A program made the position numbers and the translations under genes. Of a DNA stretch of 64,000 bases, positions 30,859 to 64,000 are shown one piece after another. Source of the DNA: Stichopus chloronotus. Lineage: Eukaryota > Echinodermata > Holothuroidea > Aspidochirotida > Stichopodidae. Position 1 is the stretch's first letter, and the number at the start of each line of letters is the position of its first letter. The notes under the pieces are model-generated. The model searched no databases, had not been told where the DNA came from, and worked only from the letters and a program-made list of their open reading frames with translations. Location of the stretch: NCBI GenBank assembly GCA_021234535.1, contig CM037840.1:272909-336908 (forward strand), given 5' to 3'.

Positions 30859-31026
30859 TCAGTTGTTGGTTATGACAGAAGTGATAAAGTCCATGTATTG
30901 CGATATCCTTGTGTAAACACCAGGAGTTTGACCATCACCGCATCCAATCCCAAAGCTGACCACGCCCACGTCCCTCCAGGTGTCACTGCTGTTGTCGTAA
31001 CACATGTACGGTCCTCCACTGTCACC
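30859..31026 (-). CDS. exon 24: protease C-terminus with Ser195
   Basis: The 168-bp terminal exon (phase 0 start after 'ttctgatgcag') encodes 55 residues and TGA. It opens with GDSGGP; the catalytic Ser is an AGT codon (AGY type). [19 protein letters not shown] supplies Ser214, Gly216, Cys220 and Gly226 of an open trypsin-type pocket. YMCYD carries Cys201. The end, [13 protein letters not shown], is the usual C-terminal helix, with no extension. Confidence 0.95.
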
Positions 31027-34000
31027 CTGCATCAGAAAAAAAGTGTGATGGTGAGAAGAAAATAAAATTTGAATGGTACTGTTGTAAAAGTGCGAAATGA
31101 AATGGTCAGTACTTTGGGGAAAAAAAAAGGTGCATAAATGTATGACATCAGTTGATTAAGGCCGTGTTCAGCTTGGGAGCTTGGATAGAGCTGAAATAAG
31201 AGGTCTTAGATACTAGTGTCTGAAAATGTGTGAACTGCACTTTTCAGTAAGTCATCTTTTACATGTTTTGATAAAATTAAATCTTTTGCAGATGTTAAGT
31301 GGTGAAACTGAACGATTTTACAATGATGTAAGCTATTCTCTTTGTATGCCATGCAGGTGCATTTTAAATGTCTCATTTTTTTTTAAGTACATCATTTTAA
31401 TAGAATGCTCTACATAAAGTTGCAGGTGCAGAATGAGCTAAACCTAAATTATCAATCAGGGGCACAGCTACATTTTGGTGACAGCGGAGGGGGCAGGGGG
31501 AAAGTTGATTCTTGGTCTCCATTCTTGCCTGCTGTCATGGAGAGGGGTATAAGGGGGGAAGGTTGTTCCCTCCCTCTTTAAAAGATTCTGCTGACGCAAA
31601 GGGCTTAGATGCAAAATGAAACTATGTTTGGTTTCTTTTTAAACTAAATCCACGTGCTGGAAATTTACTGATTTTCATTCTGTAAATGAATGACTATTTC
31701 CCCCCCCCCCCCTCCCGCAAGAAAATAAAACAGGAAAAATGATATGAAAGCCTGCATGTCACATAAGCATCACGACAGAGGAGGTTATGCTTCTACAACT
31801 CAATCATGGCTGCACCACCATTCCAACAAAATAACATCAATACAAGCAATGTGAACAGTTTCATTCTAGTGCACCACACCCACTTACGACAGAATGAAAG
31901 GGCAGAAACAAGTGAGTGCAAACAAAATTGATGAGATTCAACAAAAAAACTGATAAACAGAAGAAAAAAGGTGGAATGTCAACTTGTGTAGCTAGCCAAT
32001 GCAAACCTCAAACCAACAATAATTTATACCTTTTCAATCACTTTTGTTTTAACTGGTTTTTTCTGTGCTTTGTCTTAGTTTTAGACATCATGAAAAGATC
32101 ACAATTGGGAGAGAAATATTTCCTTATTATTGCTCTCGTAACCCTCCACTCTGCCCCACCAACTTCCCACTCCTCTCACATATTTGTTTCATTCTTTTCT
32201 TTTTCCTCTTCTTCATCTTTTCAACATCACGGATGCTGTGTCCTCAGCATTTCTTTTAAGGAGACTACATTGTCCTTGCCCCCTTGTTGGCTTTGCCAGT
32301 GTTATCAGTCGTTAATGAATGTAGCGGTCACTTGAGGGTAAAGGCACCGATAATTATTCCAGACAAGACTGCAAACATTTCAGGGATTTTTTCCCCCACT
32401 ATCCCTAAACACATTACCACTCTCAAAGGACTTCACAGAATATGAAAGTATGGAAGAAATCTTTATGATACCTGGCAAGCATCTGGACCTGGCACAGTGA
32501 ATCCGGCACAAAATTGGGTCTCGGTTATTCCGACGATAAAGAACAACTGTTCACACACACCCCTGTCAAAGAATGGTATCTCCGCCTCGTAAAGCTCGTT
32601 GCTGGCGACACCCGCTGGTGAAGAACGTAAAGTTTATGAAAGAAAAGACGAACTATTAATCTACCATCAAAAATGGAGAATATAAGAATGAATATAAGAA
32701 TAGAAAATAAGTTACAGGAAAATATCAGCTCTGATTATGTGATTATACATGAGTTGTTAGGTGGAGGGGGGGGGGGTAAGGGTTACACCAACTCCCCTCT
32801 TGTGAAAATCTTTACCATTATCACAAGAGGGAGGGATCAATTAATTTAATTACACATGTGGAGCAATTTTAGACATGCTGTGGGAGGGAGTGGACATAAC
32901 TGGTTGGGAGAATTGGAACTGTCTGGGGTGATGAGAATTTGTCTTTTAGACAAAAATAGACATGACCCAGCAAAAAGGTATCAATATTCTACAGAAGTGC
33001 TACTGTTATCGTTTCATCTATCATGGTCCCATCAACCATAAAGTTGGCAATTTCATCTTACCATCTTCCTCGGTAAATCCCCATCCAGCTACAAAACAAT
33101 TGTTCGGGAATGCCAACTCCTCTTCCATGTTGAAGTTGAGACAAAGAGGACGGACAAAGTCATTGTAGACGGCAGGACGGGGCAGCCTAATCAGAGCAAT
33201 ATCGTTTCTCTGGCTGAAGTCGTTGTAGTCTGGATGAGGAAATCGGTTTTCAGGTAAAATCTCAAACTCCTGGTGAAATTCTGTTTGGACGTCAAGTAGA
33301 AGATCTCCGAGGACGATCATCGTGATTGAGTCGACGCTAAAGAGCAAGGTAGCAACAACAAAAGAAAGAGAAACTAGGGAGTAAGATCAAGAGGTAAACT
33401 TTTGAGCTGTGGCAATGGCCATTTAGTATAGTTAACTTTTTAAAAAAGTAAAAATTGAGACTTGTAGCATAGACATAACTGGAAGACCACTGACCTCGAG
33501 TCTTTGACGTTGTTTGACTACATATTCCTCATGAGTGATCACAGACAGGTAATGCTGTGATTTCTATCACTACACAATTCATTATACAGTTGAAGAGTAC
33601 ACAAATACCTGCCTCATGTTACTGTGTAAAGTTCCATCACTGGTTTCCTGCCACAAACACTAACATGAGGCTTCACCTACCTGTACATCTTCAACCCGAG
33701 GAAAGTTTAAGGAAAGTTTAAGGAAAGTAAGATCTGCAAACAAAAATTGGCAGCATCATGTTACGGATGTCAATTTTGTGATTTGAGCTCACATGCAGTG
33801 GGCAGCAGTCAACACCCATTCTCTGTCAATTAGCGTCCCCCCACACTGATGGCTCCCCGAGGAGGTCCTGAGGGATGCCAGCCAGGGCCACGCCCCGGGG
33901 CTGGACAATTCACCGTTGACGACCCTCGGCTGGATGAACGCTGGAGTTGTGCCGCAGATAACTGAAAGATATTGAGGGCAAATAATAAAGTTGAAATGAG

Positions 34001-37000
34001 TGAACTAAAACTTCTTTTTCATTTCATGTAATTACTTGTTTATGGATAAATGTGTGTGCGTGTATGTGTTGCTCTGCATGAATTAGTAAGAGGCGAAGGG
34101 GATTGGGGGGAGGGTGTGGTGGTTATTTCTTAAAGCACATAACTCATCACCCTAAGCTATTTTTTTACCTTCCGGAGAGCAAAACTCTCAACTGGTTCTA
34201 AGTGACAGCAAATTCGAAAGATGCAGTGTAGCTCATATTGGGGTGATGAGTTTTTGTCTTTAAAATAAGAGAAGAAAATGAGGCAGTGTGGTGCAATGGC
34301 AACTGGTAGAGTAAAACACCAGACAGTTTTTCCAGATTAGCTCTTGCAAAATTAGCTATAGCTGGAAACCGCTGGGACGCAGAGTTAGATTGCCCAATGA
34401 TATAGTCTGACACTGGCCTGAGCAGATTCAACAAGAGTGGTGTGCAAATTACAGGCTCAGAAAAACTTAAAGATTGCCACACCTCTTCACTGAAATGACC
34501 AATCAGGTTGTTCTACAGTAGCTACCGAGTGATACTGACAGATAATTGGTATCGTACACACAGTTTATAGTCAAGGACCATTTGACATTTTCAATTTTTG
34601 TATTTGACAGAACTGTAGCCAGCAGAATATTTAAATTTAGTGCAGCTAGCACAACAGATGTGTATTTCTCATGCATCAGCTCTGAATGCATTCCTGACAC
34701 TACAGTCCACACTCTATTGCTTCGATTCTCGCTCATCCTGCATACATATTGAAAGCTATTAAAGTTCCTGTATGCCAATGTAATCAATTACACTCAGTAA
34801 CACTCTATATTCTTTTCCTCAAGATATAAATATTCATGAGAATTTTCTTCAGCCAGTCATGAAACGTGCAGGAGGACCGAAAAATAGAGAAGTTAGTCCT
34901 TAGATAGGACAAATCTGCAATTGTCCGCAGGTGTCACGATACCTACCAAACACCTGCTGGGAAGGTTAAATTTAGTGGCGGCGTGTTCATCAAATGAATC
35001 AACATGGATATAGCTAACTGCTCCCATCTTATGTGGTTATTGATCCCTTCTAGAACTCTCTGACAATAAGACATTTTCCTCAAGGTGATGCGTGGGGGGT
35101 GGGCGGGTGGAGGATTTCAGATTCACAGAAATGAAACCCTTTGGTTCAACCATCGTGTTGAAAATTATCACGTTCATATTCTCAATGACTTTGTTTTCAT
35201 GGTAATTATGTCATTCATATTAAAGAGATATCAGAATGACTGCAGAGAGATAAGTATGGCTACAGAAATAACTTTGGCTGTTAAAAGAAGTATGGCTATA
35301 CATATAAATAATTTTGCACTAACTTTTCCCTCACTAAAACAAGCAAATAGCATGGTTTCAGAAAGTGGGCCTTTGTTATATCATCCATGAAAAGTTATTT
35401 GCGATTATTAGGATGAAAAAGAAACTAGATTTATGGGCAAATAAGAAAGAGATCAGAAATATATCATTTGCAATAAGAAATAAACTTTTGATTTAATGAA
35501 GCATCAAACCTTCACAAACTGGTTGTTGGTTGCTCCAGGTGCCGTCGACCTGGCAAGTACGAGTTCCATCCTGACCGGCGGCCAACATCCATCCATCGTT
35601 GCAAGTGTAGGTACAGATGCTGTTTGGGGCAATCCCATCGGTGCACTGCAATATAGCATTGGCCACCTCTGGTAGCTGTTCGCAGTCTGCTGCAACTGGC
35701 ACTGCAGAGAAAATGGCAAGTCATTGCATTTCCAACATAAATAAACCAACATCTCACAAGTTCCACACATCGTTACAACTGGCACTGCAGAGAAAATTGC
35801 AAGTCATTTGCATTTCCAACATAAATAAACCAACATCTCACAAGTTCCACATATCGTTACCTCTGGTCGTGTTTCAAACCCAAAGTACAGTATGCTTTCC
35901 ATGTTTCAATTTTCTTGTGAAATGGATTGGGGCCTTTAATTATATGCTTTGATGCAGTTAACTACTAAATCTAATTGAGTAATAACAGTCCCTACTAAAT
36001 TACAGAACAATAGGCATTTAAAGTTTATTTTTTCGACAATCTCACGACGTTGCAAATTGTCACCATTAAATGACTTTGTAGGAAATGAAAATGCATGATG
36101 CGTGCCAAGGCTGGGGAATTAATTAAGAGCAACTTCAGGATATTTTTTATACATGTTTCTAAAATTACTTTTCATAAAACTCTTATGGTAAAGACTAAAT
36201 TTAGATTTCACAGCATAAGCAGACTACACAACTTCTTAATAGATATTACCTTGCTCACAGACGGGCTCTGCCCCGATCCACGATCCGGTTTGTGGGTTGC
36301 ATGTCCTGGATGCACCCTGATTCAGAGACGCAATTTGAAAACCTTCATTGCAAGAGTAGGTACACACACTTCCGGCAAAGAAGCTATCTGTACAGATTGG
36401 AGCAGCAGCATTGGGAATGGCACCTAAGACTGGGCAGGTGACTATGGACAGAAATAAAGTGAACAGAATCAGCTAACTTTTTTTCAGTTTTCTTCTTCCG
36501 TAATCGACATGAAAAGTAAATTCGAGACATCTACCACATTAAGACAGAACCTTGTTACAGATGTCAGACAGCCTTAGCCCTGACTGTAGTTTTTTTTGAG
36601 CTGTATTTCATACAATTGTACCGAAATGAGTTGTCATGACCACAGACAAAGATTTGCATTTGAGAAGAGGGAATTTTTCTGACTAAAAACCAAGAAAAAC
36701 GGTTTTTAGCAGTTTAATCATTTTTAGTGTTTTTCATGATTTTGCTTACATTTTATTTTCGATAACTGTACAGTGTTACTTTCTGTTTATTTATGAAGCA
36801 TCACATGTAAAGTGTTTCCTGAATATGACATTGAAACACCTCGTGAATATGACAAAAATAAAACTATTAAAAGATGGCTAAAACGAGAAATAAAGTAGCA
36901 GACCAGCCGTAGTACATAGCCTTTGTATTTGTTCAATGGATGGTAAAACATGACGAATATCACCCACTTCAAATGCATTGGTACTTAGAGACGCTTGTTG

Positions 37001-40000
37001 AGTTGTTTCCTAAATATCGCGACATTTGTCTAAGCCTGTTAAGTTTTCTAAACATACTAATTACAAATGGTCAAATTAAGAGAATCCCGATGTTCCACAT
37101 ACAAAGGAACATAAATGAGTGAGAAGGAATGATCCAATTTGGTTTCTGAAAATTCGTGACCAGACACTTTTTATATTAGTGCTTATTCACATGCAAACAT
37201 CCAGGATGCGCAGGGCCAAAAATGCAAAAAAGTTTGAGTTTTCATAACAATGGATGTGAAACTTGATTAATTATGCTAATCATAAGCATTGTAATGTGTG
37301 TGTGTCATGTGTTTATACTTTTCAAAATCATCACAACCTTATTGATATCAACTCAATGAGCCCCTTTTGATGAATGAAAAGAAAAGTCACCATGAAAAGA
37401 CAATGAAAAAGTCACCATAAATACTGAAAATGAACTAACCTTGGACACATGATGGTTCCGGAATGGACCATTCACCGGTATCAGTACACGTCCTGCTTCC
37501 TGTGGTTTCGAACCTGAACCCATCATTACAGGAATACATGCACACACTGCCAAAATTGAAATTGTTGGTACAAACTTGCAGATTCCCGTTAGGGATAGGC
37601 AGAAGACTAGGACACGTAACTGGCAGAAAGAAAAGGAACAGAAAAAGTACAGGGCCATCACAGTATAGCTGGGGAAAAGATTTCACCTGCAAACATTTTT
37701 GATGTATTTTTTTGTTACTTTGTGAATGTCAATGACTATAGTAAGACATCATGTACTAGTTTTCATTACAAATCTGCAGTAAATCAATTGAAAATTTATC
37801 TCACCACTACCATCCATAAATTTCATTTCACAGAATTTTTTATTTCCCATTTAATGTAACAGTAGTAAAAACTGCAAGCAAACCATTGTCAGCCTTAACA
37901 AATACTGGTCAGCAAAGTCACAAACCCTCACTGAGCAGGACCACAAACTCCAGTCAGTAGAATGACAAACCCCTGTTAGAGGAACCACATGGCCTTAAAG
38001 GAGAGCCAAAAATCCTGGTCAACAGTCAAAAATGTCACCCAGTAGCACCACAAAACACAGTAGTACCAAAATCCAATATCAGTAGAATCACAAACATCTG
38101 TTAGTAGAACCACAAATACCTGTCAGAAGAGTAACAAAACCCCTATCAAAGTCACAAACCCTTGTTAGCAGAGTCACAAACCCTTGTTAGGAGAGTCACA
38201 AACCCCTGTCAGAAGAGTCACAAAACCCCTATCAAAGTCACAAACCCTTGATAGCAGAGTCACAAACCCTTGTTAGCAGAGTCACAAACCCCTATTAGGA
38301 GAGTAACAAAACCCCTATCAAAGTCACAAATCATTGTTAGCAAAGTCACAAACCCCTATTAGGAGTGTCACAAACCCTTGTTAGGAGAGTCACAAACCCC
38401 TGTCAGAAGAGTCACAAAACCCCTATCAAAGTCACAAATCCTTGTTAGCAGAGTCACAAACCCTTGTTAGCAGAGTCACAAACCCTTGTTAGCAGAGTCA
38501 CAAACCCTTGTTAGAAGAGTCACAAACCCTTGTTAGAAGAGTCACAAACCCCTGTCAAAGTCACAAACCCTTGCTGGCAGAGTCACAAACCCTTGTTAGC
38601 AGAGTCACAAACCCTTGTTAGCAGAGTCACAAACCCTTGTTAGCAGAGTCACAAACTCTTGTTAGCAGAGTCACAAACCCTTGTTAGCAGAGTCACAAAC
38701 CCTTGTTAGAAGAGTCACAAACCCCTGTCAGAAGAGTCACAAAACCCCTATCAAAGTCACAAACCCTTGTTAGCAGAGTCACAAACCCTTGTTAGCAGAG
38801 TCACAAACCCTTGTTAGCAGAGTCACAAACCCTTGTTAGAAGAGTCACAAACCCCTGTCAGAAGAGTCACAAATCGTTGTCAACAGACTTGCAAACACTG
38901 GTCAGTAGCACTTCAAACCACAGTCAGCAGAACCACAAACCCTTGTCAGCTGAACCACAAACCCTTGACAGTGGAACCACAAACTCCTGGTCAGCAGAAC
39001 CACAAACTCTTTGTCAGCAGAACCACAATTTATTGGTAATGATGAGTAGCATTGTAACGCATGTCAAAAGTTTCCCTAAATTTTAAAACTGACTGGGAGC
39101 CAATTACCATTAACTTGTTTGAAGTCATTTACAAATATCAATTTCAGATAAATTTACTTAGAAAATGTTTTATATTACACTAATATGTTGACAAATTATG
39201 AAAGGAATTGATGCGAATGTAAATAATTTGAGAAGTTTATACTGCAATGAAAGGCAATCTAGAGCAGCACACATAAATCATATCAGTAATAGCAATAGTC
39301 CACCCACTTCAAATACACTCTGGTACTTCATGCATGAATAGTCACCATGGCAACTAACCTTGGACACATGATGGTTCCGGAATGGACCATTCACCGGTAT
39401 CAGTACATGTCCTGCTCCCGGTGGATTCGAACCTGAACCCATCGTTACAGGAATACATGCACACACTGCCAAAATTGAAACTGTTGGTACAAACTTGCAG
39501 AGTCCCGTTAGGGATAGGCAGAAGACTAGGACACGTAACTGGCAGAAGAAAAAGGAACAGAAAAAGTACTGTGCCATCAGGATATAGCTGGGGTATAGAT
39601 TTAAACCTGCCATTATTTTTGTTCTACTTTTGTTGCTACTCTTTTATAGTAGAAAAAACAGGAAAACAAGCCAAGCCAGCAGACAAAAAAAACCCAGTCA
39701 GCAAAAGCACCAACCATGGTCGGCAGACATGGAAAACCTTGACAGGAGAACCACAAACTCAGGCAAAGAGCAAAATTCATAAATTTTCCGACAGAATTAA
39801 GATGCATGTTAATTTAAGTTGGTTGATTTGTAAAATAACTTTTCATTAAATTTATCAGAACCACCAGAAAGTTACTTCTAAAAGTATTTCACTTAAGCCA
39901 TGATGTGTGTCAGATGGTGGAAACAGAATCAATTAAAAATTTCAAGTTAAGTCAACACCTCAAAAAAAGGAGGATTATTTCGCATCAAGTTGTAAGCACC

Positions 40001-52000: not shown

Positions 52001-52072
52001 ACCATCATCATCATCATCACCATCATCATCGTCATCATTATCATCATCATCATCATCATCATCACCATCATT

Positions 52073-52107
<35 letters not shown>

Positions 52108-55100: not shown

Positions 55101-58100
55101 TCACACCCATGTTAGAGCAGCAAGTATTTTTGGATGCAACTGAAGAAAAGTGCAAGTAAAGTGAAGAAAAGTGCCAGTAAGCTGCAAGTATTAAAGGTTA
55201 CTATGTGTGACCTTTGTCATTTTTCAGTAGAAATCTCAGCTGCACTTCGAATCTAGGTTCGCTCAAGAACTTAACACCTTGTCTGGTTTTCCAGAATAAC
55301 TTGATTGGCAACTTAACAAATTAATTTAGTGTGACAAAGTTCTTGTGGTTGAAAAAACAAAACGTACATAAAATGCGATCAAGTGTCAAAATATTGAAGT
55401 AATCAGTTGAAAATGTATGAAGCCAATGTGACGTTTGCCGACCTAAAATAACTAATGACATGCCCGACAATGACATCAATATTTCTTCCAAGGATAGTAC
55501 AGACTCGGAATATTGGGCACACTCAATAATTTAAGCGGGAAGGATTACCAGTTTTACAAAGTTGATCAACCGCCACTCCCTTGATATTTCTTTGACAATT
55601 TTACATCATTTTAGTATTTAAAGTTATAGAAACTATAACTTTTACTTTACGTAAAAGCTGAACTAAAAATACACAACTTTAATATAGCAAAAACAAACTT
55701 GAGTACATAAACTCACATATTTTATCATTTCCTAGTGTAGTGTTGTTGTTCTTTTGCATTTGTGAGGTCTGTTTGTCTCCACCTATTATCTACGGCAGCT
55801 CTCATTTTCAAGCATATGATATTTTTGAGGCCTGCTGTACCTACAGTATCTTTCCAAAGAATACTGTACAGTATTCCCTCCTCATGGTAGAAACAGCTTA
55901 ATCTTTCTACAAAGAAACTGACTCAAATTCTTACTCATGCATATTCATCAAATTTGACTGCATATGCTTTGTCTTACTGTTACATGGTACCACCTAGCTA
56001 TAGTCACAAATATTAGAAAAAAAACACAAAAACAGATCATTTCATGTTTGTTGATATTTAAACCTTGCATACAGAGAGTATGTGATAAATATTTATAATT
56101 ATAAATATTCATGAACGAGCCAGGCGGTATGCAAATTACTTACAAATGCAGGAAGGAGGACTTCCGGTCCATTGTCCATTTCGACATATACGAGCCAACA
56201 AATTTCCCCCTTGCTCTAAAGTGAACCCGTCCACACATCTGAAGGTACAAATGCTCTGATCGGCATTGGCACGGGAACATGACATCGTTGAATTTTCTAT
56301 TTCGACTAGCAATGGACAAGCAGGCACTGCAAAGGAAATATTGAATTTTTCAATATTTTTGGTTTTGTTTCCAAGCGAAGAATGTTGCTTAGTAAATGAT
56401 TAGACAATGTGCAAATATATTCTTGTAAAATCCATAACAGAGAAAACTTCAACAACTTTAAGTCTGCTCGCAGTCTTTTTGCGCAGATACAGATAATCTG
56501 AAACCACAAGACTTTTTGAAAAGGCAAACCGTTCTCACTACTTCTGTTTGATTTACAAGCCCATTTAACCATATTATCATCCTTTTTAGTACAAAACATT
56601 TGAAAACAAACATTTGAGAAGATTGAAATGAAACTTACTTTCACAGAGAGGAGCGACATTTGTCCACCTCTGGTCCTCTTGACAGACCCTGTCCGGCAGA
56701 CCGAGGAGAAAGAATGGAGAGTTGCATGTGTGGGTGCAGCGACTGGACACCTCATTGCCCATGGTACAGGATATGACCCCATCAACCAACGGATCAAGAG
56801 GAGGGCATGTCATGCTGTATATGGCAGAAAAAAACTTATACAAATTTTTGGTTTTCATATTCCTTTTAAAGCAGGAATATGATTGAAATTTGTTAAATGA
56901 AAGTCAAATTCCGCAGAATATGTCACAGACACTACAAAAAACAAGCCTTGTTAAAGCCTCATTTTTGCATACATGCATATTCATATCTATTCCCATTGAT
57001 CTGTCTGATTTCACGTAATGGTGATTGACTGCTGCGCCTTCTTGTAAAGCCTGAATTTTGTAGGGCCAACAAAAATGTCTAGGCAATTTTCATATTAAAC
57101 TATGTGGAAGATGAGAGCATAATTCTCTTTCAGATTTTGTGACAGGTGATTTTTTTTTCCATATTCTCTCAAGCTTCCCTGAAACATTGCTGAAGAACAA
57201 AAGTAGATGACCAGGCAATTGGCTATACTGTACATCTCATATTCCAGCTTTAAAGTGTCAGTCTTTAGTACCAAATCTGGAAAGGGATGCAGCAAAAAGT
57301 AAAAAAAAAAGTAAAAATTAAGGGGCAAAGCTTTGAAAAAGTTTCTGCAATTGTATACTTTATGTCAAAAACTTATAATGTGAAACATTCAACCACTGAT
57401 CTTGAACAGAAAACATGATTTTTTTCACATCAAGGGAACATAACTTAAAATTTTCATAACCTGAACTTTTACACAGTTTCATCTGTAAACTGTAGGAAAG
57501 TACTACAAACTGTTTGTAACAGCTGTGTCTTTTACACCCAATAGACTATTGATTGACCTCAAAAAAAAAAGATATCAAACAAGGTATGGTTAGCATCACA
57601 GGTATTATATGGTTAGCATCATAGGCACTATATGCTTAGAATCACAGTTATTTAATGGTTAGCATCGCAGGCACAATATGGCTTGCATCATAGGCACGAA
57701 ATGGTTAGCATCACAGGCACTATATGATTAGCATCACAGCTACTATATGGTTAGAATCACAGGTATGGTTAGCAGCATTATTTCAAATCCAATTTCAGTA
57801 GATGTTAGGGCACACACAGAATAAATGTCGCAAAAAATAAAATCACTTTGTTCATTTGATATTCTGCAAAAGAGTTCCGCAAATTTCGGTGATTCTCTAT
57901 GGTCCCACAGATTGTGGTTGCAATTGCTGAAGTATAGAAATACTCTGACCGAGATTGAAATTGAGGAGAAGCCTTTGCCTCTGTTTTACTGTCAGGATAC
58001 AATGTAGGGAGCAGTGTTGTTGTAAAGTGTCTTCCCTAGTGCAGTGAACTTTTGAAAATCCTCAAAAGATGCATCCACTAGTTTTGTTTTAAGGGTACAT

Positions 58101-61100
58101 TAGATTCACCCCCCCTCATTGTGGGAGTGTGATCTTTATCTGACGGGCGTAGATAAGAAATGGTCCTCTCAACAATATGGTGTAAAGGCGCGTTCACACT
58201 ACAACGATATCAGATCGGATTACGATCCGATTTTTTTTATTTTTAGTAAATATCTTCTCCATCTCTGATCGGAAAGAACCAAAAATTTTCCAACTTGTGT
58301 AAATAAATGATTTGTATCGCATGACTAAGAAAATCAAATTTATACTAATTATTTCCTGACGTCACACCGACAGACAGCTTTTATCGGACGACGCGTGTCC
58401 GATAAAAGCTGTCTGTCGGTGTGACATCACCAAATAATTAGACAACATTTCATTTTCGTGGTCCTCTGGTAAAAATCATATCTTTACACAAGTTGACAAA
58501 TTTTTGGTTCTTTCCAATCAGAGATGGAGAAGATATTTACTAAAAATAAAAAATGGATCGTAATCCAATCCGCTATCGTTGTAGTGTGAACGCGCCTTAA
58601 GAGTGTCTATATACTGTATCAAAACTATGACAAGAAGAACAACACACAAATGGATGACAGAATATTAAAGGCACAAACTCATGGAACACTAGGCTGTTTT
58701 TACAGTAATCAGTGCTAGTAAAACTGTCAGATATGGTCCACCTTAGTAAAAAAATTAATCTCTGAGATTCAAGCGACCCTGGATCTATCTTTGAACAGAG
58801 GTAAAAACAGTGTAGTTTCTGTTACATATCTTGATGAATTTGTTTAAATGGAAGTATGGCAAACTTTTAGAAGAGATTGAAAATGAAATTAAGAATGTAG
58901 CAGTAGATTCAAACAATCAAAAATGTTTAGAGACCAGGGTAAGTCTTTAATATTCAAGATATATTTGCAGATCAATATTAACCTCTGACTTTGTGATACA
59001 AAATAATTTCTTACAACCAAAACTTCAGTGAAATAAACACAATTAAGAAAGTAAAGACTTCTTTGAATATTTTTCCTTAGAGGACGATTGTTAATGAAGG
59101 AAAAAAAGAGCCAAATTCACCAAATTCCTTGACAAAGGAAACATAAAGATTAGAAAAACTAAGTTCCACAAGTTTAAGGGAAACAAGGTGTTCAAAATGC
59201 ACCAACAGGGCAAAGAAATACAATAGTTTTAATCATTGCTAAACCATTCAGTCTTATCAACGAACATCTACAAAAACTTCATTTCCTAAAAACATCACAC
59301 GTACGATGAGTTATGGAACATGAATATGAATTTTTGAAGGTTTGGGTGATCAAATTATTCTTCTGCTACAAGGAAGTGAAGTTCTATCTGTGAGAAACTT
59401 ATTTCTTGTAAACAAGACCTTCCAAGATTAATTTGAATAATTCATCATTGCGTTGACACCTATTGGTTTCAAATCTCTGATTTGTTTTTCTGCAAAGTAA
59501 ACACCTTATTTCCCACTAAGAAACAGTCAGTGTGAAGCATAGCCACCAGAAAGCTTATATATATATAACTTACATTTTTGTAAATAAAATAGTCATGTAT
59601 TCAAGAAATTAACTGCACTCAAATCACTTTTTACATTTGTTTTGCTTTAAATTTCCTTAAAAAAGGAAACAAAGATTCTCAACATGAAATGTAACATATT
59701 CACCAAATTTTATGGATTTTTTTAAATCTGTTTCCATTTCAAAGGAATGACTTCAACATCTTGAACCAGTTTTAAAGAGGATCAATAGACTGTCTTTAAT
59801 ATTCCTGTCATTTGGTACTTTTTGTAATATTCTTTGAATGCAACAAATTTTTAAAATACAAGAAGGCAGAAAAAAAAGTATGACATCCAGCAAATGCACC
59901 ATGAGAGAAGGAATTTTGGTTTGAAAAGAAAGAAAGTACTCACCCTTGATATGAGGTATACAATTTTGTTTACTACTGACAGTATACACGTTAACACAAG
60001 TTTAATGAGAAGTAAATAGTGAAGAAGATGAACAGATGAGGAGCAATTCAACAGTTACAACTGAGATTATGATCAGACCCTCACAGGCACATTAGACCAC
60101 AAGCTCACCCTGATGTTGTAGGAGGTTGGCATATGTTCCAAGGTAGGAAAATGTTCACCTACTTTATGTTTTTCTAAGCATATAACTACAGCTAACTGAA
60201 ATGTTTTACATTTTATCTCAATAGATCTCAGTTGCACACTACCTCATATATCATATATTTCACTGTGTTATTCGTCATCAATTAATTGTGTCCAGCATGT
60301 GAAGACAAATTTCTCGTAAACTAACCCCATCCCTCCCAACTATTCTCCCTAAGTTTCCAATGAGTATACATGCTTTCAGAAATTCTGTTGGAAAACATCT
60401 CTAGAGTTTTGTTCTCACATTACATCATCTCTATTTCACCGAAAATACCCTGCGGACCACTTTAAAGGGTATGTTAGTACTCAGAAGCAGAGGAGGCTGA
60501 TGAAAGTGGGGCTGATGAAAGTCGGGGCTGATGAAAGTGAGGGCTGATGGAAGTAGGGGCTGATAAATGTGGGGCTGATGGCTGTGGGGCTGATGGATGT
60601 GGTGGCTGATGAAAGTGGGGCTGATGAAAGTGAGGGCTGATGGAAGTAGGGGCTGATAAATGTGGGGCTGATGGCTGTGGAGCTGATGGATGTGGTGACT
60701 AATGAAAGTGGGATTGATGGAAGTGGGACTGATGGAAGTGGGGCTGATGGAAGTGGGGGCTGATGAAAGTAGAGGCTGATGAATGTGGGGCTGATATATG
60801 TGGAGGGATATTGTCAAATGACAGTGAGTGGGGTTGACCAGGATAAGGGATGATGAAACTAATATGAGTCAGTAAGAACAATTTGGGTTGAGCAAAGTGG
60901 GGACTGATGGGTGTGAGGCCAGAGGGGATGATGTGGTCTAATGGCAGTGATGGGGGCTGACTGGACTGGGGGATACAAGGGATCATGTGGTCCAGTCTGT
61001 GTGATGGGAAGTGATGGTAGAAACAGTTCATTTTACTTACCTTCCTGGCAACGATCTCCCGTAAAGGGCGAAGGACAACGACACATAAATCCTTCACCTT

Positions 61101-63401
61101 CACTGACATCACAGGTTCCCCCATTCATACAGGGCTGATCTGAGCAACCTGTCACAGTGTAGGAGGAGAAAAAATGGTCATACAGTTTAATCCTTTCATC
61201 CTACAAACATTGCCAACTAAGACCACTTCCATTGTCATGCTACAACATACAGTAAGGTATATACCTGTTAATATTGACATGCAAAGCAAAGCATCGTATA
61301 GTTATGACTTCATAATAAATTTGTAGTTACACTTTTGAGTAACAAGGGCACTCTAGTGTCTATAGCTGGTGTGTATGACACAGGTCAGAATTTTATACCC
61401 AGTAGGCACTGTAGGTTCATAGCTAGGTGTTATAGGCAAGAAGGCAGAGAGTTACTGTAGATATCAAGTTTGTTAGGTAGATAACTACTACATGTGGATA
61501 TACTGTAGGTAGACACAGTGAGAAGGTACTTAGGTAGATCTGTAGCTTCTGTAGCTACAAATGTAGATAGGTATATATCTAGGTCAGTAGGTAGATAGGT
61601 AGTTCAGGTACGTACTGCAGGTAGGCACTGCAGATAGGTATTCAAGTAAATATGTACAGTAGCTAAAGAGGTAGACAGGTTTGGTAGGTAGTTAGGTAGA
61701 CAGGTTGTGTAGCTACGAAGCTAGATCAGTAAGTAGATAGGTTCTATATGTAGGAAGTGTGAGTAGGTACTATAGATAGGTACTTAGGTAGGTAGAACTG
61801 CATGGACATGTATGTAATTATATAGTGTTGGTACAGTGCAGTAGATTGGTACTTAGGTACATATAAACTGTACCTAAGAATTTAGAAATGTGTATATCTA
61901 GGTTGGTAGGTAGGTAGGTAGAACTGCATGGACATACTTTAGGTAGTAGGAAACTGTAGGTAGTCACTAAGGTAGACAGGTTGTGTAGCTAGGAAACTAG
62001 ATCAGTAAGTAGATAGGTTCTATATGTAGGAAGTGTGAGTAGGTACTATAGATAGGTACTTAGGTAGACAGGTTCTGCAACTGGGAAGGTAGATAGTTAT
62101 GTATAGGTACGTAGGTCGATAGGTACTATAGGTAGGTACTGGGGGCGAGCACTTAGGTACATAGCTTCTGTAGCTAGAAATCTAGGTCGGAAGGTTGATA
62201 GGTACTGTAAATACGTAATGTAGGTAGGGTGTAGCTTGACATACCTGTGTTTGAATTGTCACCTCCAGATTGGTTTGTCTGTGGCAGTGTGGTTAAGAAA
62301 TTTACTGAAAAGATAAAATCTTTCATGAGTTTTGTAAAATGGGAGAGAAAATTGATAAGGATATGAAAAAGGTTTCTAAAAAGGTGGTGAGAGAGAAAAT
62401 GGTATAGAAAAATATCCCGTTACGCAAAGGTGATGGTGGCCCCATCATGACATCACAAGTCAGTCATTTCACATTCTTGACTAAATAACCTGGCTGTACT
62501 GGACTGAAAATTGTCACCCACTGACAAAGAAACTGCCTCCACAAAAAAAAAAAAAAATTCCACCTTCCTTCAAAATATTTTCTGACTCCCAAACAATTAA
62601 CAATAGGCTACAGCTATGTCCAAAAGAGTAAGCCCTTCAATCCCCTCCATGGTGATGTGCCTCATGCATAGCTGTACCCCCATCCTCCCACTCTGGTGAA
62701 AATCTGTGGAGACCACCGGAACAGCTATCTATGGTATTCAGTAGGAAAAGTGAATGAATATGAAAGAATCAACCTTATATCAAGGAACAGTCACCCCCCC
62801 CCCCCCAAAGTCTTGAAGTAGGAAATAAAATGTTGCACAGATGCCGACGATATGTTAATTAATGAAAACAGACAACAATATCATGTTCAACTCATGATGT
62901 AATAAAATTGATCAAAACAGTAAGCCAATTTACACTAACAGATGATATTATGAACATTGAGCCACTGCCACTGAGATTGTGATTTTTCTCAATGGACCAA
63001 GAACAAGGTCCCGGACAGCATGTGGGAGCTGACTTGACCATGGTCCAAACATGGGGTCAGATCAAACATCTAAGAACCATCTAAGGTAAATGTTGAATGG
63101 TGTTAAATGATGCAATGTCAGAATGTTGTCTGTCACAAATCAGTAAAAATACAGTATTCAAAAAAAAAAGAAGTGAGAGAAAGCTGGATAGAGTGGACAA
63201 ATCAAATGAAATAAAAAACTACCGTAATTACTCTCAGTTACTGCCACAGTGCTGCTGTCTGCAGGTAATCCAGAAAGGTTGCCGTTATTGAGGGCTCTCT
63301 GGATTTCCTCTTGGAGAAGAGCCTGAAACTCCGCATTGGTGTTCAGGTCTTCTGGAAGTCCCACAAGTGTCACCGTGTAGTAAACAACCACACTGCCACT
63401 C
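30859..63401 (-). CDS. SEA-EGF-CCP(17)-trypsin mosaic protease gene, 5' partial
   Basis: This is one minus-strand gene of 24 coding exons in the window, about 1,405 residues. The stop is TGA at 30,859-30,861 and the 5' end lies past 64,000. Domain order is half SEA domain, linker, EGF, 17 sushi/CCP modules, trypsin-like protease. Exons were joined by GT-AG sites and by frame. Every CCP intron is phase 1, except that the EGF-to-CCP1 join needs an alternative donor or an unseen exon. The catalytic triad (TAAHC, RNDIAL, GDSGGP), Asp189 (DACQGDSGGP) and the cysteines for the 42-58, 136-201, 168-182, 191-220 and heavy-light chain disulfides are present, so an active zymogen with Arg/Lys specificity is expected. 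It shares parts with complement proteases and Limulus factor C but lacks CUB, vWA and LCCL domains. Function in recognition or innate immunity is inference. No signal peptide or membrane segment lies in the window. Confidence 0.9.
32472..32614 (-). CDS. exon 23: protease, Cys168 to Asp189/Cys191
   Basis: A 143-bp exon, phase 1 in and phase 0 out, between acceptor 'cttcaccag' and donor 'gtatca'. It encodes [14 protein letters not shown] and ETQFCAGF, supplying the Cys168-Cys182 pair, and ends PGPDACQ, where D is the specificity residue Asp189 and C is Cys191. The exon breaks just before GDSGGP. Confidence 0.93.
33062..33336 (-). CDS. exon 22: protease, Asp102 region
   Basis: A 275-bp exon, phase 2 in and phase 1 out. 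It contains [18 protein letters not shown] with catalytic Asp102, RPLCLN with the Cys122-type residue that tethers the heavy chain, and NNCFVAGWG with Cys136. The acceptor is 'ttgctctttag' and the donor 'gtaaga'. Confidence 0.95.
33793..33961 (-). CDS. exon 21: activation site and His57
   Basis: A 169-bp exon, phase 1 in and phase 2 out. VICGTTPAF holds the linker Cys of the heavy chain, and QPR|VVNGE is a trypsin-like activation site. HQCGGTLI (Cys42) and VLTAAHC (His57, Cys58) form the histidine loop. The exon ends directly after AAHC, a classic intron position in split-exon trypsins. The donor is 'gtgagc'. Confidence 0.95.
35510..35701 (-). CDS. exon 20: CCP17
   Basis: A 192-bp phase 1-1 exon encoding the last sushi domain before the protease. 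Six Cys are in place (ADCEQL, LQCTDG, SICTY, YTCNDG, RTCQ, PVCEG) with the conserved Trp in GTWS. The donor is 'gtttga' and the acceptor 'ctctgcag'. It is the most divergent of the downstream CCPs. Confidence 0.93.
36250..36441 (-). CDS. exon 19: CCP16
   Basis: A 192-bp phase 1-1 exon. [11 protein letters not shown] and [20 protein letters not shown] carry Cys1-4, with RTC, GSW and PVCEQG after them. It is close to CCP12 and CCP13 in wording ([15 protein letters not shown] type). It has no in-frame ATG, so simple ORF scanning misses it. Confidence 0.93.
37440..37619 (-). CDS. exon 18: CCP15 (near-identical to CCP14)
   Basis: A 180-bp phase 1-1 exon. It starts [13 protein letters not shown], continues [15 protein letters not shown] and ends EPSCVQG. 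It differs from CCP14 at only three residues. All six Cys and the Trp are kept. The donor 'gttagt' is also shared with CCP14. Confidence 0.95.
37880..39040. repeat. ~22-bp minisatellite in the CCP14-CCP15 intron
   Basis: Dozens of copies of a unit near 'agtcacaaacccttgttagc' fill most of this intron, degenerating at both edges into 'cagcagaaccacaaac' types. The plus-strand open frames here are a by-product of the repeat. A short, unexpanded version of the same motif lies at 39,660-39,770 in the next intron. Confidence 0.95.
39359..39538 (-). CDS. exon 17: CCP14
   Basis: A 180-bp phase 1-1 exon, the sister copy of CCP15, with all six Cys and Trp (GEWS). The acceptor is 'ttctgccag' and the donor 'gttagt'. 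Confidence 0.95.
40038..40223 (-). CDS. exon 16: CCP13
   Basis: A 186-bp phase 1-1 exon with [38 protein letters not shown] and PTCEQG. It has six Cys and Trp and is close to CCP12 and CCP16. The donor is 'gtaatt'. Confidence 0.94.
40634..40819 (-). CDS. exon 15: CCP12
   Basis: A 186-bp phase 1-1 exon with [39 protein letters not shown] and PTCEQG. All six Cys and Trp are present. The donor 'gtggta' is weaker than most in this gene. Confidence 0.92.
40820..41973. other. intron between CCP11 and CCP12
   Basis: Pyrimidine-rich stretches at 41,090-41,340 and 41,600-41,700 look like two degenerate copies of the same CT-rich sequence. No exon-like phase 1 cassette with CCP cysteines was found here. 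Confidence 0.5.
41974..42153 (-). CDS. exon 14: CCP11
   Basis: A 180-bp phase 1-1 exon with [40 protein letters not shown] and PSCQQG. All six Cys and Trp are kept. The acceptor is 'ttgtctcacag' and the donor 'gtagac'. Confidence 0.94.
42809..42994 (-). CDS. exon 13: CCP10
   Basis: A 186-bp phase 1-1 exon with [38 protein letters not shown] and GCFG. Six Cys and Trp are present. The donor is 'gtcagt'. The usual Pro before the last Cys is replaced (EIIGC). Confidence 0.93.
43755..43934 (-). CDS. exon 12: CCP9
   Basis: A 180-bp phase 1-1 exon with [41 protein letters not shown] and PTCQ. Six Cys and Trp. The donor is 'gtaagt'. It ends with C, completed by CCP10 as a Pro codon, which supports the join. 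Confidence 0.94.
45070..45246 (-). CDS. exon 11: CCP8 (CCP5-8 family)
   Basis: A 177-bp phase 1-1 exon with [50 protein letters not shown]. Six Cys and Trp. It is one codon shorter than CCP5-7 and the most diverged of the four, so it is probably the oldest branch. Confidence 0.95.
45505..45745 (-). mobile_element. CR1/L2-like LINE 3' end, copy 3
   Basis: On the minus strand this matches the last ~230 bp of the LINE at 7,735-8,358 (Asn-Asn-Phe-Val codons, 3' UTR with 'cagcacgac'-like wording) and ends in an (ATTC)n tail at 45,509-45,563. It lies in the CCP7-CCP8 intron and shows that the family is dispersed in this genome and not confined to the satellite. Confidence 0.88.
45874..46053 (-). 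CDS. exon 10: CCP7, last cysteine lost
   Basis: A 180-bp phase 1-1 exon of the CCP5-8 family with good splice sites and no stop. It reads [50 protein letters not shown]. The final Cys codon TGT is TCT (Ser), whereas CCP5, 6 and 8 have TCQ/ACQ. The last disulfide of the module (Cys5-Cys6 equivalent) therefore cannot form. It may be spliced as a weakened domain, skipped without frame change, or decaying. Confidence 0.9.
47595..47774 (-). CDS. exon 9: CCP6 (CCP5-8 family)
   Basis: A 180-bp phase 1-1 exon with [52 protein letters not shown]. Six Cys and Trp. The acceptor is 'ctttcacccacag' and the donor 'gtaaca'. Confidence 0.95.
48915..49200. repeat. ~196-bp duplicated segment inside the LTR
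   Basis: The 'ggtttggtggtactggtacg' segment starting about 48,933 recurs at 49,129 with strong similarity over roughly 90 bp. It lies downstream of the TATA-like box, before the larger tandem array. Confidence 0.8.
49210..50160. repeat. GC-rich tandem array with CACGTG in each unit
   Basis: Units of roughly 50-70 bp contain 'acgcacgtgcaccaacgcc' followed by 'agtgacgcac'. About 15 units are visible and about ten keep the E-box palindrome CACGTG. The array is far GC-richer than its surroundings and accounts for about half of the LTR insertion. Confidence 0.9.
51223..51402 (-). CDS. exon 8: CCP5 (CCP5-8 family)
   Basis: A 180-bp phase 1-1 exon with [53 protein letters not shown]. Six Cys and Trp. 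There is no in-frame ATG, so it is missed by simple ORF scanning; frame and splice sites match CCP6 exactly. Confidence 0.94.
51935..52240. repeat. (ATC)n/(GAT)n microsatellite, ~300 bp
   Basis: Nearly pure trinucleotide repeat with scattered ATT, ACC and GTC variants. All six frames stay open over it, giving spurious poly-Asp, poly-His, poly-Met, poly-Ser and poly-Ile frames. Confidence 0.97.
52240..52450 (-). other. open frame of unknown origin next to the GAT repeat
   Basis: Minus-strand codons from TGA at 52,451-52,453 run open for about 70 residues into the GAT tract. They include [26 protein letters not shown] and [18 protein letters not shown], with five Cys. Base composition is more gene-like than the neighbouring intron. 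A phase 1-1 exon is possible (AG before GGTGC; donor GATG|gtggtg) but both sites are weak. I do not recognise a family. Confidence 0.3.
52460..53612. other. intron between CCP4 and CCP5, right part
   Basis: AT-rich sequence with no CCP-like exon and no recognisable repeat. Confidence 0.5.
53613..53813 (-). CDS. exon 7: CCP4
   Basis: A 201-bp phase 1-1 exon, the longest CCP exon. It reads [28 protein letters not shown], then a Ser-rich insertion (PSLSSSV), [11 protein letters not shown] and LTCA. Six Cys and Trp. The donor 'gtctgg' is weak but the frame continues correctly into CCP5. Confidence 0.9.
54700..54882 (-). CDS. exon 6: CCP3
   Basis: A 183-bp phase 1-1 exon with [40 protein letters not shown] and LTCIG. 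Six Cys and Trp. The acceptor is 'tttttgtacag' and the donor 'gttagt'. Confidence 0.93.
54883..56143. other. intron between CCP2 and CCP3
   Basis: AT-rich sequence; no exon or transposon ends recognised. Confidence 0.5.
56144..56326 (-). CDS. exon 5: CCP2
   Basis: A 183-bp phase 1-1 exon with [30 protein letters not shown], a slightly longer loop (EQGGNLLA), [10 protein letters not shown] and PSC. Six Cys and Trp. The donor is 'gtaagt' and the acceptor 'tttcctttgcag'. Confidence 0.93.
56639..56814 (-). CDS. exon 4: CCP1
   Basis: A 176-bp exon with [38 protein letters not shown] and PLCE. Six Cys and Trp. The acceptor 'gccatatacag' leaves one base before ATG, so entry is phase 2, whereas the EGF exon's best donor leaves phase 1. 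The exit ('gtaagt') is phase 1 like all the others. Confidence 0.9.
57580..57785. repeat. ~24-bp minisatellite
   Basis: About eight degenerate copies of 'atggttagcatcacaggcac' plus a few bases, in tandem. Confidence 0.92.
58186..58597. mobile_element. fold-back MITE with TAA target duplication, 412 bp
   Basis: The whole segment is one long imperfect palindrome. The ends are AGGCGCGTTCACAC and GTGTGAACGCGCCT, and the centre near 58,391 is a near-perfect arm pair containing 'agacagcttttatcggac'. TAA stands on both sides (58,183-58,185 and 58,598-58,600). A 3-bp TWA target is typical of PIF/Harbinger elements, so this is probably a non-autonomous relative; family assignment is tentative. Confidence 0.88.
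60480..60800. repeat. ~18-bp minisatellite
   Basis: Tandem 'ggggctgatgaaagt'-type units with alternating variants that form a longer higher-order period; repeat content fades out by about 60,960. The minus-strand frame (HQP/ISPTF repeats) is a by-product. Confidence 0.93.
61041..61148 (-). CDS. exon 3: EGF domain
   Basis: A 108-bp exon encoding a complete EGF module: [13 protein letters not shown], then [15 protein letters not shown]. All six Cys are in place. No calcium-binding D-x-D/N-E start is seen. Acceptor 'actgtgacag', donor GAAG|gtaagt (phase 1); a second GT four bases on would give phase 2 and the frame needed by CCP1. Confidence 0.95.
61390..62235. repeat. degenerate TAGG/TAGA-rich tandem DNA
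   Basis: Long irregular tract built from 'aggtaggtagata', 'gtactataggtagg' and similar words. It includes two ~55-bp repeats of the 'gctaggaaactagatcagta' type (about 61,711 and 61,987). It fills most of the intron between the linker and EGF exons. Confidence 0.9.
62245..62304 (-). CDS. exon 2: short linker
   Basis: A 60-bp phase 1-1 exon encoding about 20 polar residues ([19 protein letters not shown]) between SEA and EGF, Thr/Ser/Asn-rich and with a possible N-glycosylation site (NQS). The acceptor is 'tatcttttcag' and the donor 'gtatgt'. Short, so support rests on splice sites and the unbroken frame on both sides. Confidence 0.8.
62305..63231. other. intron between SEA and linker exons
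   Basis: No coding or repeat structure recognised beyond a C-run at 62,793 and A-run at 62,543. Confidence 0.5.
63232..63401 (-). CDS. exon 1 in window: C-terminal half of a SEA domain
   Basis: A 170-bp exon, phase 2 in and phase 1 out. After the acceptor 'atttaccattag' it reads [16 protein letters not shown], a helix-rich stretch ([17 protein letters not shown]) and STVAVTE. GSVVV is the autoproteolysis motif of mucin-type SEA domains, followed by the beta-alpha-beta pattern of the SEA C-terminal half. The N-terminal half must lie in an exon beyond 64,000. SEA domains occur in membrane-anchored or mucin-like proteins. Confidence 0.88.
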
Positions 63402-64000
63402 CTAATGGTAAATAATAAAAATGGAAGATACACTCTGTTAGTTTGTTTTGTAGGGTAAAACTCTAAAGGAATAACAAATCCGTAATAGATCCTACTGAGA
63501 TGCACAAGGTAAATGATTTCTTTTTCCTTTATACATGTCATCTATCACATCAATTGGGATACATAAAGATTTTAAAGGGATAATCCAGGTACAATACATT
63601 CAAATGAACTAATGAGAAACAGAGAATATTTCTTTCACTTCAGGTACCCCACTGGGCCACTCATATATATCTTCTTCATAACTAAAAGATATATCGTGAA
63701 GAGAGAATGCCCAAATCAAGAATGATTTTCAGAAGTCTCAAATTGGGGTGCAAAGGACTACAAAAGAGTCTTTGTTATTCTTTGAAACTGAAGTGCATAT
63801 TTTTTACCTTGGAATTTACTTGCAATGAAATATTAGATTTAAGGTTTGTTGTCCAAAGAACACAAAATATTACAAAAAATCAAGTTCACAACTCTTAAAT
63901 TATATGGCAATGTTTCTTTCTAAGACAATCAAAATTATACAGACGTACGAGGGATGTTAAATTAGTATGGCTTGGCTGACATCATAGTTTATTACTTGTG
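63402..64000. other. intron upstream of the SEA exon
   Basis: AT-rich, no exon recognised. The rest of the gene's 5' portion lies to the right of the window. Confidence 0.55.

Follow-up and report, generated by a model that had tools for sequence, protein, structure and literature searches.

Gene organization within the window

The window, the whole stretch of 64,000 nt analysed here (C12:272909-336908 of the 719-Mb assembly, position 1 being its first letter), carries on its minus strand a gene whose domains follow one another in the order SEA, EGF, 17 sushi (CCP) modules and trypsin, as read from stop-to-stop frames, a CCP profile and Pfam. Within the window the gene extends from the start of SEA exon c at 63401 to the stop codon at 30859-30861. 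The first-pass annotation had described a single frame from SEA through EGF and 17 CCPs to trypsin; the domains, their order, the limits and the splice phases stand, but the gene starts outside the window. The SEA domain is split over three exons, two of which, exon a (64994-65103) and exon b (64412-64479, with MMGLFNNGSL in the window copy), were found by exon-by-exon reading past the window end, 5' of SEA exon c, so that the window shows the SEA portion with FRSGSVVV alone. A Pfam scan of 64001-74000 gave no domain match, though SEA exons a and b sit there, and split domains can thus escape Pfam. Exon c (63232-63401) encodes the second SEA half with the cleavage motif GSVVV and ends at a GTAATT donor that is kept in two sister copies, B1 (C12:770-823k, minus strand) and B2 (C12:859-900k, plus strand). 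A longer exon c, with a GTAGTT donor 9 bases on (exon end 63223), was dropped, as B1 and B2 have GC there.

The EGF module occupies one exon (61041-61148; Pfam PF00008, phase 1-1), followed by the exon body of CCP1 at 56639-56814. The CCP profile and splice reading place the other CCP exons at 56144-56326 (CCP2), 54700-54882 (CCP3), 53613-53813 (CCP4), 51223-51402 (CCP5), 47595-47774 (CCP6), 45874-46053 (CCP7), 45070-45246 (CCP8), 43755-43934 (CCP9), 42809-42994 (CCP10), 41974-42153 (CCP11), 40634-40819 (CCP12), 40038-40223 (CCP13), 39359-39538 (CCP14), 37440-37619 (CCP15, a near-duplicate of CCP14), 36250-36441 (CCP16) and 35510-35701 (CCP17); CCP5 to CCP8 look like mutual internal duplicates. 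A regular-expression scan recovered 17 CCP cores, 15 of which were used to build the profile. This was run in six frames over 244 kb (114 kb around the window and the 130 kb of C12:770001-900000), and returned 51 matches at E<0.1, 17 each in the window gene, B1 and B2 and none elsewhere in the 244 kb. Since all of the matches fall in three gene copies, the CCP array is not a product of chance. The introns within 30859-56800 were covered by the CCP profile alone.

The trypsin domain is spread over four exons: exon 1 (33793-33961) with a cysteine ahead of the protease (ICGTT), the activation site PR/VVNG and the histidine motif TAAHC; exon 2 (33062-33336) with the catalytic aspartate (NDIAL) and a cysteine in RPLCL; exon 3 (32472-32614) with the S1-pocket aspartate (PDACQ, continuing as DACQGDSGGP); and exon 4 (30859-31026) with the catalytic serine (GDSGGP, codon AGT) and the stop. 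With His, Asp and Ser present, the domain is a C-terminal protease of the S1 chymotrypsin fold, and the cysteines at ICGTT and RPLCL stand where a link after activation would require them. Pfam scored the joined window chain at 4.7e-11 for SEA, 2.2e-9 for EGF, 3.2e-135 for sushi (over 16 stretches, CCP1 being omitted) and 2e-57 for trypsin.

All of the 25 exons, SEA exons a and b included, have AG acceptors, and all but the last have GT donors. The joins keep phase all the way from SEA exon a to the stop at 30859, with the single exception of EGF to CCP1, and without CCP1 the chain is open and in phase for 1384 aa.

Stretches of about 1.0-1.2 kb around CCP5-CCP7 (45773-46773, 46766-47923, 47496-48482 and 50391-51539) match, at 87-91%, adjacent CCP units in the sister copies, a sign that would point to internal duplication. 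Repeats are also present: intronic minisatellites (22-bp and 68/183-bp units), a long TCA array and, 3' of the gene, tandem units of 293/268 bp, at window positions 38150-39028, 49205-50140, 51936-52238 and 14104-18123.

A multicopy gene family

SEA, EGF, 15-17 CCP exons and the four trypsin exons recur at no fewer than eight placed loci, some of them damaged. Locus and exon counts are lower bounds here and throughout, because the searches score best candidates only. SEA exon c matches at least 11 placed loci in addition to contig C197, with four on C12 (0.34 Mb, the window, and 0.81, 0.86 and 2.05 Mb) and seven on C10 (12.79, 12.84, 12.98, 13.11, 15.51, 15.61 and 15.69 Mb). The four trypsin exons are found at all four of the C12 SEA loci and on C10 at 12.76, 12.95, 15.54 and 15.72 Mb, exon 4 being matched in part only at 15.54 Mb, and the 15.72-Mb locus having a TGA inside the exon-2 match and a partial exon 3. 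Further trypsin-exon copies lie on contigs C70 and C235.

The number of CCP exons differs between copies. The window copy, B1 and B2 have 17 CCP exon matches each, as do X1 (C10 12.95-12.98 Mb) and X2 (C10 12.76-12.79 Mb), CCP10 of X2 being degraded with stops; X3 (C10 15.51-15.54 Mb) has 16, and X4 (C10 15.69-15.72 Mb) has 16 with one partial. The copy at C12 2.02-2.06 Mb (SEA at 2.05 Mb), here called M, has 15, with CCP4 absent and a mere remnant of CCP8. For the C10 SEA loci at 12.84, 13.11 and 15.61 Mb, no trypsin exon match was found in reach. At 12.84, 13.11 and 15.60-15.61 Mb there are transmembrane (TM) and SEA/EGF exons, with CCP1-3 matches as well at 13.11 Mb, and these loci may be either truncated copies or short anchored decoys.

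Some of these matches recur exactly. The SEA/EGF matches of C10:12973750-12978226 are repeated, with the same scores, at 13109056-13113532, an offset of exactly 135,306 bases, which would reflect a very recent duplication or else an assembly artefact. The unplaced contigs C70, C197 and C235 hold further partial copies of the gene; C70 matches B2 with equal scores in several exons, and may be a B2 haplotig. In addition, the last 32 trypsin residues (query 221-252) recur in both orientations as 39-aa open frames of 69-81% identity, at C10:12862789-12862884, 12711264, 13424216 and 15663344 and at C16:1141407, among others, possibly as passengers of a mobile element. C11:19164068-19170261 has long open frames of 644 to 961 aa with many CCP-like matches (26-34% identity), perhaps a multi-CCP gene with few introns.

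The membrane anchor exon

The start of the protein is visible at copy M, which reads from an ATG through a cytoplasmic tail, a TM segment, a linker, SEA and EGF to 15 CCPs and trypsin (Pfam trypsin 8.9e-56), in 25 exons and 1389 aa with one stop. Here the anchor exon, MHRVGGTTKSVGTEISTISGRQSNYGRHERQS-TICLIFLLIILILLIAAIAVVLVFAL, ends in a phase-1 GTGAGT donor and precedes a linker exon, SQPRAEEPTKAKE, of phase 1-1; the ends of the TM and linker exons thus match in phase 1. The start codon is putative, there being no stop between the ATG and an upstream AG. M has, by sequence, the N-terminal hydrophobic signal anchor that characterizes type II transmembrane serine proteases (TTSPs).

The anchor exon is found at eight of the eleven placed SEA loci, on the same strand and 5.1-7.4 kb upstream, namely at M and, in varying repair, at the seven SEA loci on C10. 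The first-pass suggestion of a membrane-tethered or shed protein gains support from this distribution together with the GSVVV motif. In X1 the anchor exon is frameshifted and its ATG lost, and the linker exon has lost one base. In the six further C10 copies the anchor exon is unshifted in all six, the ATG is kept in four and the TM donor in five, and the linker donor is GT in five and GC in one. A ninth match is weak (E 0.009, C12:2090388) and has no adjoining SEA match. No TM exon turned up for the window copy, B1 or B2; of the anchor and linker exons, B1 retains the linker only.

Between M and the six C10 copies, the anchor exon differs by a pS of 0.10-0.13 and a pN of 0.035-0.054. Among the six, with few changes in each pair, pN exceeds pS in 6 of 15 pairs and falls below it in 8, both being zero in the remaining one. 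Pooled over 21 pairs, pS is 0.049 and pN 0.028. From this pattern, the anchor exon was probably under constraint in the past, with several of the C10 copies now drifting.

Lesions of the window copy

Long blocks of the window copy are 89-99% identical to B1 and B2, mostly 96-98%. B1 and B2 are arranged head to head, some 37 kb apart. Each reads SEA-EGF-17 CCP-trypsin over 1443 aa with a single terminal stop, all 25 exons having AG acceptors and, with the short SEA exon c donor, GT donors except for the last. The join into CCP1, which had been flagged as the one uncertain join, is a real defect of the window copy. At window position 56812, B1 and B2 have extra DNA (about 2.3 and 1.65 kb, respectively) that is absent from the window copy, and both keep a clean phase-1 CCP1 acceptor, ttttag/tgctgacaTGC, that is missing there. 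The EGF to CCP1 join is out of phase because this true acceptor has been deleted at about 56812, and the nearest AG is out of phase. In addition, the last cysteine of CCP7 has become serine in the window copy and is intact in B1 and B2. Other changes are the loss of one cysteine in CCP14 of B1, an extra cysteine in CCP15 of B2, and compensating indels in SEA exon a of B2.

The 5' end of the window copy differs as well. The likeness of the window copy to B1, M and X1 ends at 68910, further matches to B1 being repeats with several placements, whereas B1, M and X1 remain alike upstream of that point. A search of the 40 kb upstream of the window copy recovered neither the anchor nor the linker exon, and in scans of 65.1-78.4 kb, next to its SEA exons on the 5' side, nothing convincing emerged as a signal peptide or TM exon. 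One hydrophobic ORF, near C12:814042, was rejected as the anchor because it reads as a reverse-transcriptase-like fragment, with a VPQGSIL motif. The upstream flank of the window copy also has, by eye, a long open frame resembling TRIM/RING-B-box proteins and a second, broken one (78195-80507 and 95281-97553), and similar DNA lies upstream of B1.

With simple counting, dN/dS for the window-B1, window-B2 and B1-B2 pairs, respectively, is 0.25, 0.43 and 0.32 over CCP2-17 and 0.27, 0.27 and 0.55 over SEA exons b and c plus EGF. For trypsin the values are 0.28, 1.97 (from 1 synonymous and 7 nonsynonymous changes) and 0.27. It is conceivable that the window copy is a functioning variant with 16 CCPs, spliced past CCP1 and given a signal or anchor by a new 5' end: a splice from EGF to CCP2 is in phase and leaves an open chain of 16 CCPs to the stop, and each of the three parts has a dN/dS of 0.25-0.28 against B1. 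Such low values may, however, predate the duplication, the CCP7 disulfide cysteine is lost, and the scans used found no signal peptide or TM exon upstream, which together make a functioning variant unlikely. The window copy is more readily seen as a 5'-truncated, lesioned member of the family that is probably decaying, and that may be non-functional or may make a 16-CCP form without an anchor of its own. The picture of a working zymogen at this locus is not supported, given the deleted acceptor, the lost CCP7 cysteine and the anchor exon that was not found.

Relatives in other species

The first-pass annotation proposed a search for the same domain order with the conceptual protein, and the search, with the whole window chain without CCP1 as query, returned 61 proteins. 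That order is seen in two relatives, P0001 and P0073. The best relative, P0001, presumably an Apostichopus japonicus model, is 48% identical over 89% (SEA/EGF 47%, trypsin 72%), and has, behind the larger, C-terminal part of a SEA domain, EGF, 27 sushi modules and trypsin. P0001 is labelled SVEP1-like, a name that fits its CCPs and EGF only, and it is the sole named relative of that order to be found, in keeping, in that sense, with the earlier statement that no named protein is known to be built in this way. P0073 has SEA, EGF, 13 sushi modules and trypsin (68% identical) as one open frame within a 4208-base contig that looks transcript-derived; the SEA start is missing, with part of exon a present. 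GSVVV is found in the window copy, B1, B2, M and P0001, and GSVIV in P0073, as a G-SVVV-type site within SEA of the kind known from self-cleaving SEA domains. The activation site is R/VING in B2 and R/IVNG in P0001 and P0073.

By best matches, the CCP arrays of B1 and P0001 are collinear at both ends, with modules 1-3 of B1 matching 1-3 of P0001, 4 matching 6, 5-7 matching 7, 9 matching 18, 10 matching 19, 11 matching 20, 14/15 matching 26 and 17 matching 27. Read from these matches, the difference between the collinear ends is a lineage-specific multiplication of CCPs. The CCPs of P0073 match the chain described here clearly at the last two only.

Two proteins of other origin with the same order bear on the possibility that hand-joining has fused separate neighbouring genes, one with the protease and one with the SEA/EGF exons. 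That order recurs at the eight or more placed loci, B1 and B2 read from SEA to trypsin and M from its anchor, and P0001 and P0073 are single proteins, the latter an open frame in its 4208-base contig. A joining artefact is thus close to refuted and extremely improbable, and the earlier reading as one gene stands.

The first residues of P0001 (MVDVFNNGSL) coincide exactly with the beginning of SEA exon b, inside SEA, with no anchor visible, and this start raises a second possibility: that the product is secreted, beginning at the exon b methionine or in some other first exon, and that the TM exon belongs to some copies only or to another gene. MMGLFNNGSL stands at this place in the window copy, and no TM exon was seen for the window copy, B1 or B2. 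Set against these points, a protein begun at exon b would have only half of its SEA domain and would lack a signal sequence. The window copy, B1, B2 (with its compensating indels), M and X1 all retain exon a, and P0073 has part of it. The phase-1 ends of the TM and linker exons match, and the TM exon lies upstream of eight of the eleven placed SEA loci. A secreted product is therefore very unlikely.

Membrane anchorage also agrees with the starts of some more distant relatives. Eight proteins were inspected, and all five of the echinoderm SEA-trypsin proteins among them have a TM segment just before SEA. These SEA poly-proteases (P0072, P0083, P0085, P0154 and P0156, the last from Apostichopus japonicus) share the TM-SEA start and trypsin with the gene family, and P0085 also has SEA followed by EGF, but they differ in having CUB, LDLa, Fz or MAM domains; the two that were scanned, P0083 and P0085, have four trypsin stretches and no sushi. 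Against this, the amphioxus protein P0090, with SEA listed, begins with a signal-like stretch, and its first 400 residues show no TM of comparable strength; P0145 and P0097 have no SEA listed. P0036 from the coral Acropora muricata shares the multi-CCP array (12 CCP stretches) and C-terminal trypsin, but has no SEA or EGF match and an N-terminus that is signal-peptide-like by eye. A protein search with SEA and EGF returned P0001 only (1 protein from 527 candidates), and says little about absence elsewhere because it missed P0073, which is within its length range. Among the titles and abstract openings listed, in a coverage with few subscription journals, no paper described the order SEA-EGF-CCP-trypsin.

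Comparison with known protease systems

Among the best 60 of 560 PDB matches to the protease, the nearest solved chains are enteropeptidase-1, plasminogen and plasma kallikrein, and TTSPs (enteropeptidase, hepsin and TMPRSS2) are mixed with plasminogen, plasma kallikrein and factor XI; C1r, C1s, MASP and factor B are not among these 60. TTSPs of the enteropeptidase, matriptase and HAT type share with the family a TM anchor, a SEA domain nearby, a C-terminal trypsin, an arginine activation site and the linking cysteines, and as in TTSPs a modular stem lies between anchor and protease, here of SEA, EGF and 15-17 CCPs. The stem is where the two differ: it consists here of CCPs and one EGF, whereas those TTSP stems are built of LDLa, CUB, MAM and SRCR. 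Sushi is not known to be among the six TTSP stem domain types, and no named TTSP is known with a CCP stem. In human and mouse, TTSP stems have up to eleven domains of six types, according to PMC3154331. Enteropeptidase is described with a TM segment, SEA, a stem and a disulfide-linked catalytic chain. For matriptase, PMC5567652 describes cleavage of SEA at Gly149-Ser150 with the halves held together, activation at arginine, a disulfide link and self-activation.

The window and M chains also share CCP modules and a trypsin-like zymogen with C1r/C1s/MASP, factor B/C2 and Limulus factor C, and were said to differ from all of these. The difference is borne out by Pfam, with CUB, vWA and LCCL unmatched in the chains. 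CUB had no match in the window and M chains or in the minus-strand frames of 56820-64000 and 64001-74000, and vWA, LCCL and lectin domains had none in the two chains. The order CUB-EGF-CUB-CCP2-protease of C1r/C1s/MASP is thus not that of these CUB-less chains. In C1r, C1s and MASP-2 the protease domain lies on one intronless exon, and here it lies on four. Limulus factor C has LCCL and C-type lectin parts, neither of which was matched here, and the combination of CCPs, vWA and protease of factor B/C2 is likewise not seen, there being no vWA match. SVEP1 has vWA, pentraxin, many EGF and sushi modules and no protease; the present chains have no vWA or pentraxin, one EGF, and a trypsin.

CCP modules and an Arg-specific zymogen are the building blocks of C1r/C1s/MASP and factor B, and their presence here would fit a complement-like or clotting-like initiator, with CCPs that detect surfaces of microbial or altered-self kind and a trypsin head that then cuts C3, factor B or a zymogen of clotting. 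It would be the protein described here, put to an immune use. The multicopy family, the CCP number that varies among species (13, 17 and 27) and the signs of internal duplication would also fit, as seen in some recognition proteins. Such an initiator is nonetheless quite unlikely, given the absence of CUB, vWA, LCCL and lectin domains from the chains in Pfam, and the best 60 of 560 PDB matches, which lie nearest enteropeptidase, plasminogen and kallikrein and lack C1r, C1s, MASP and factor B. Moreover, PMC11312191, which gives C1r/C1s/MASP as having CUBs and two CCPs and factor B/C2 as having vWA, reports classical MASPs in echinoderms.

Proposed mode of action and implications

The reading that we favour, and hold to be probable, is that the gene belongs to a lineage-expanded group of type II transmembrane serine proteases whose stem is a chain of CCPs, and that the window copy is a 5'-truncated and probably decaying member. 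Its working, as to topology, self-cleavage, activation, stalk length and substrates, is inferred by us from the domain order, the splice phases, the anchor exon at sister loci, the catalytic and specificity residues and the cleavage motifs. In an intact copy, one signal-anchor helix would hold the chain in the membrane, and SEA would cleave itself at G/SVVV with both halves remaining together, by analogy with matriptase. EGF and some 15-17 CCPs would form a long extended stalk, placing the zymogen far from the membrane and offering many binding surfaces, and the same analogy would make the intact copies zymogens on the cell surface, carried at the end of a CCP stalk. A cut after the arginine of PR/VVNG, made by another trypsin-like enzyme or, when molecules are crowded, by the protease itself, would activate it. 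The active protease, of Arg/Lys specificity, would stay disulfide-linked to the stalk, and might be shed by the parting of the SEA halves or by a second cut.

More speculatively, and as a long shot, the family might provide a holothurian cell-surface initiator, in which a CCP recognition chain of fast-changing length is combined with a self-cleaving anchor and its own trypsin, such that one polypeptide senses, activates itself and is shed, independently of MASP and factor B.

A stem of sushi modules would bring a further domain type to the TTSP stems, and would unite the worlds of membrane proteases and complement modules in one chain. With at least eight full-domain copies, and with 13, 15-17 and 27 CCPs among relatives, the family offers a natural example of rapid stalk evolution. 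As the only named relative found is labelled SVEP1-like, name-based surveys of echinoderm proteases and immunity would probably miss the gene.
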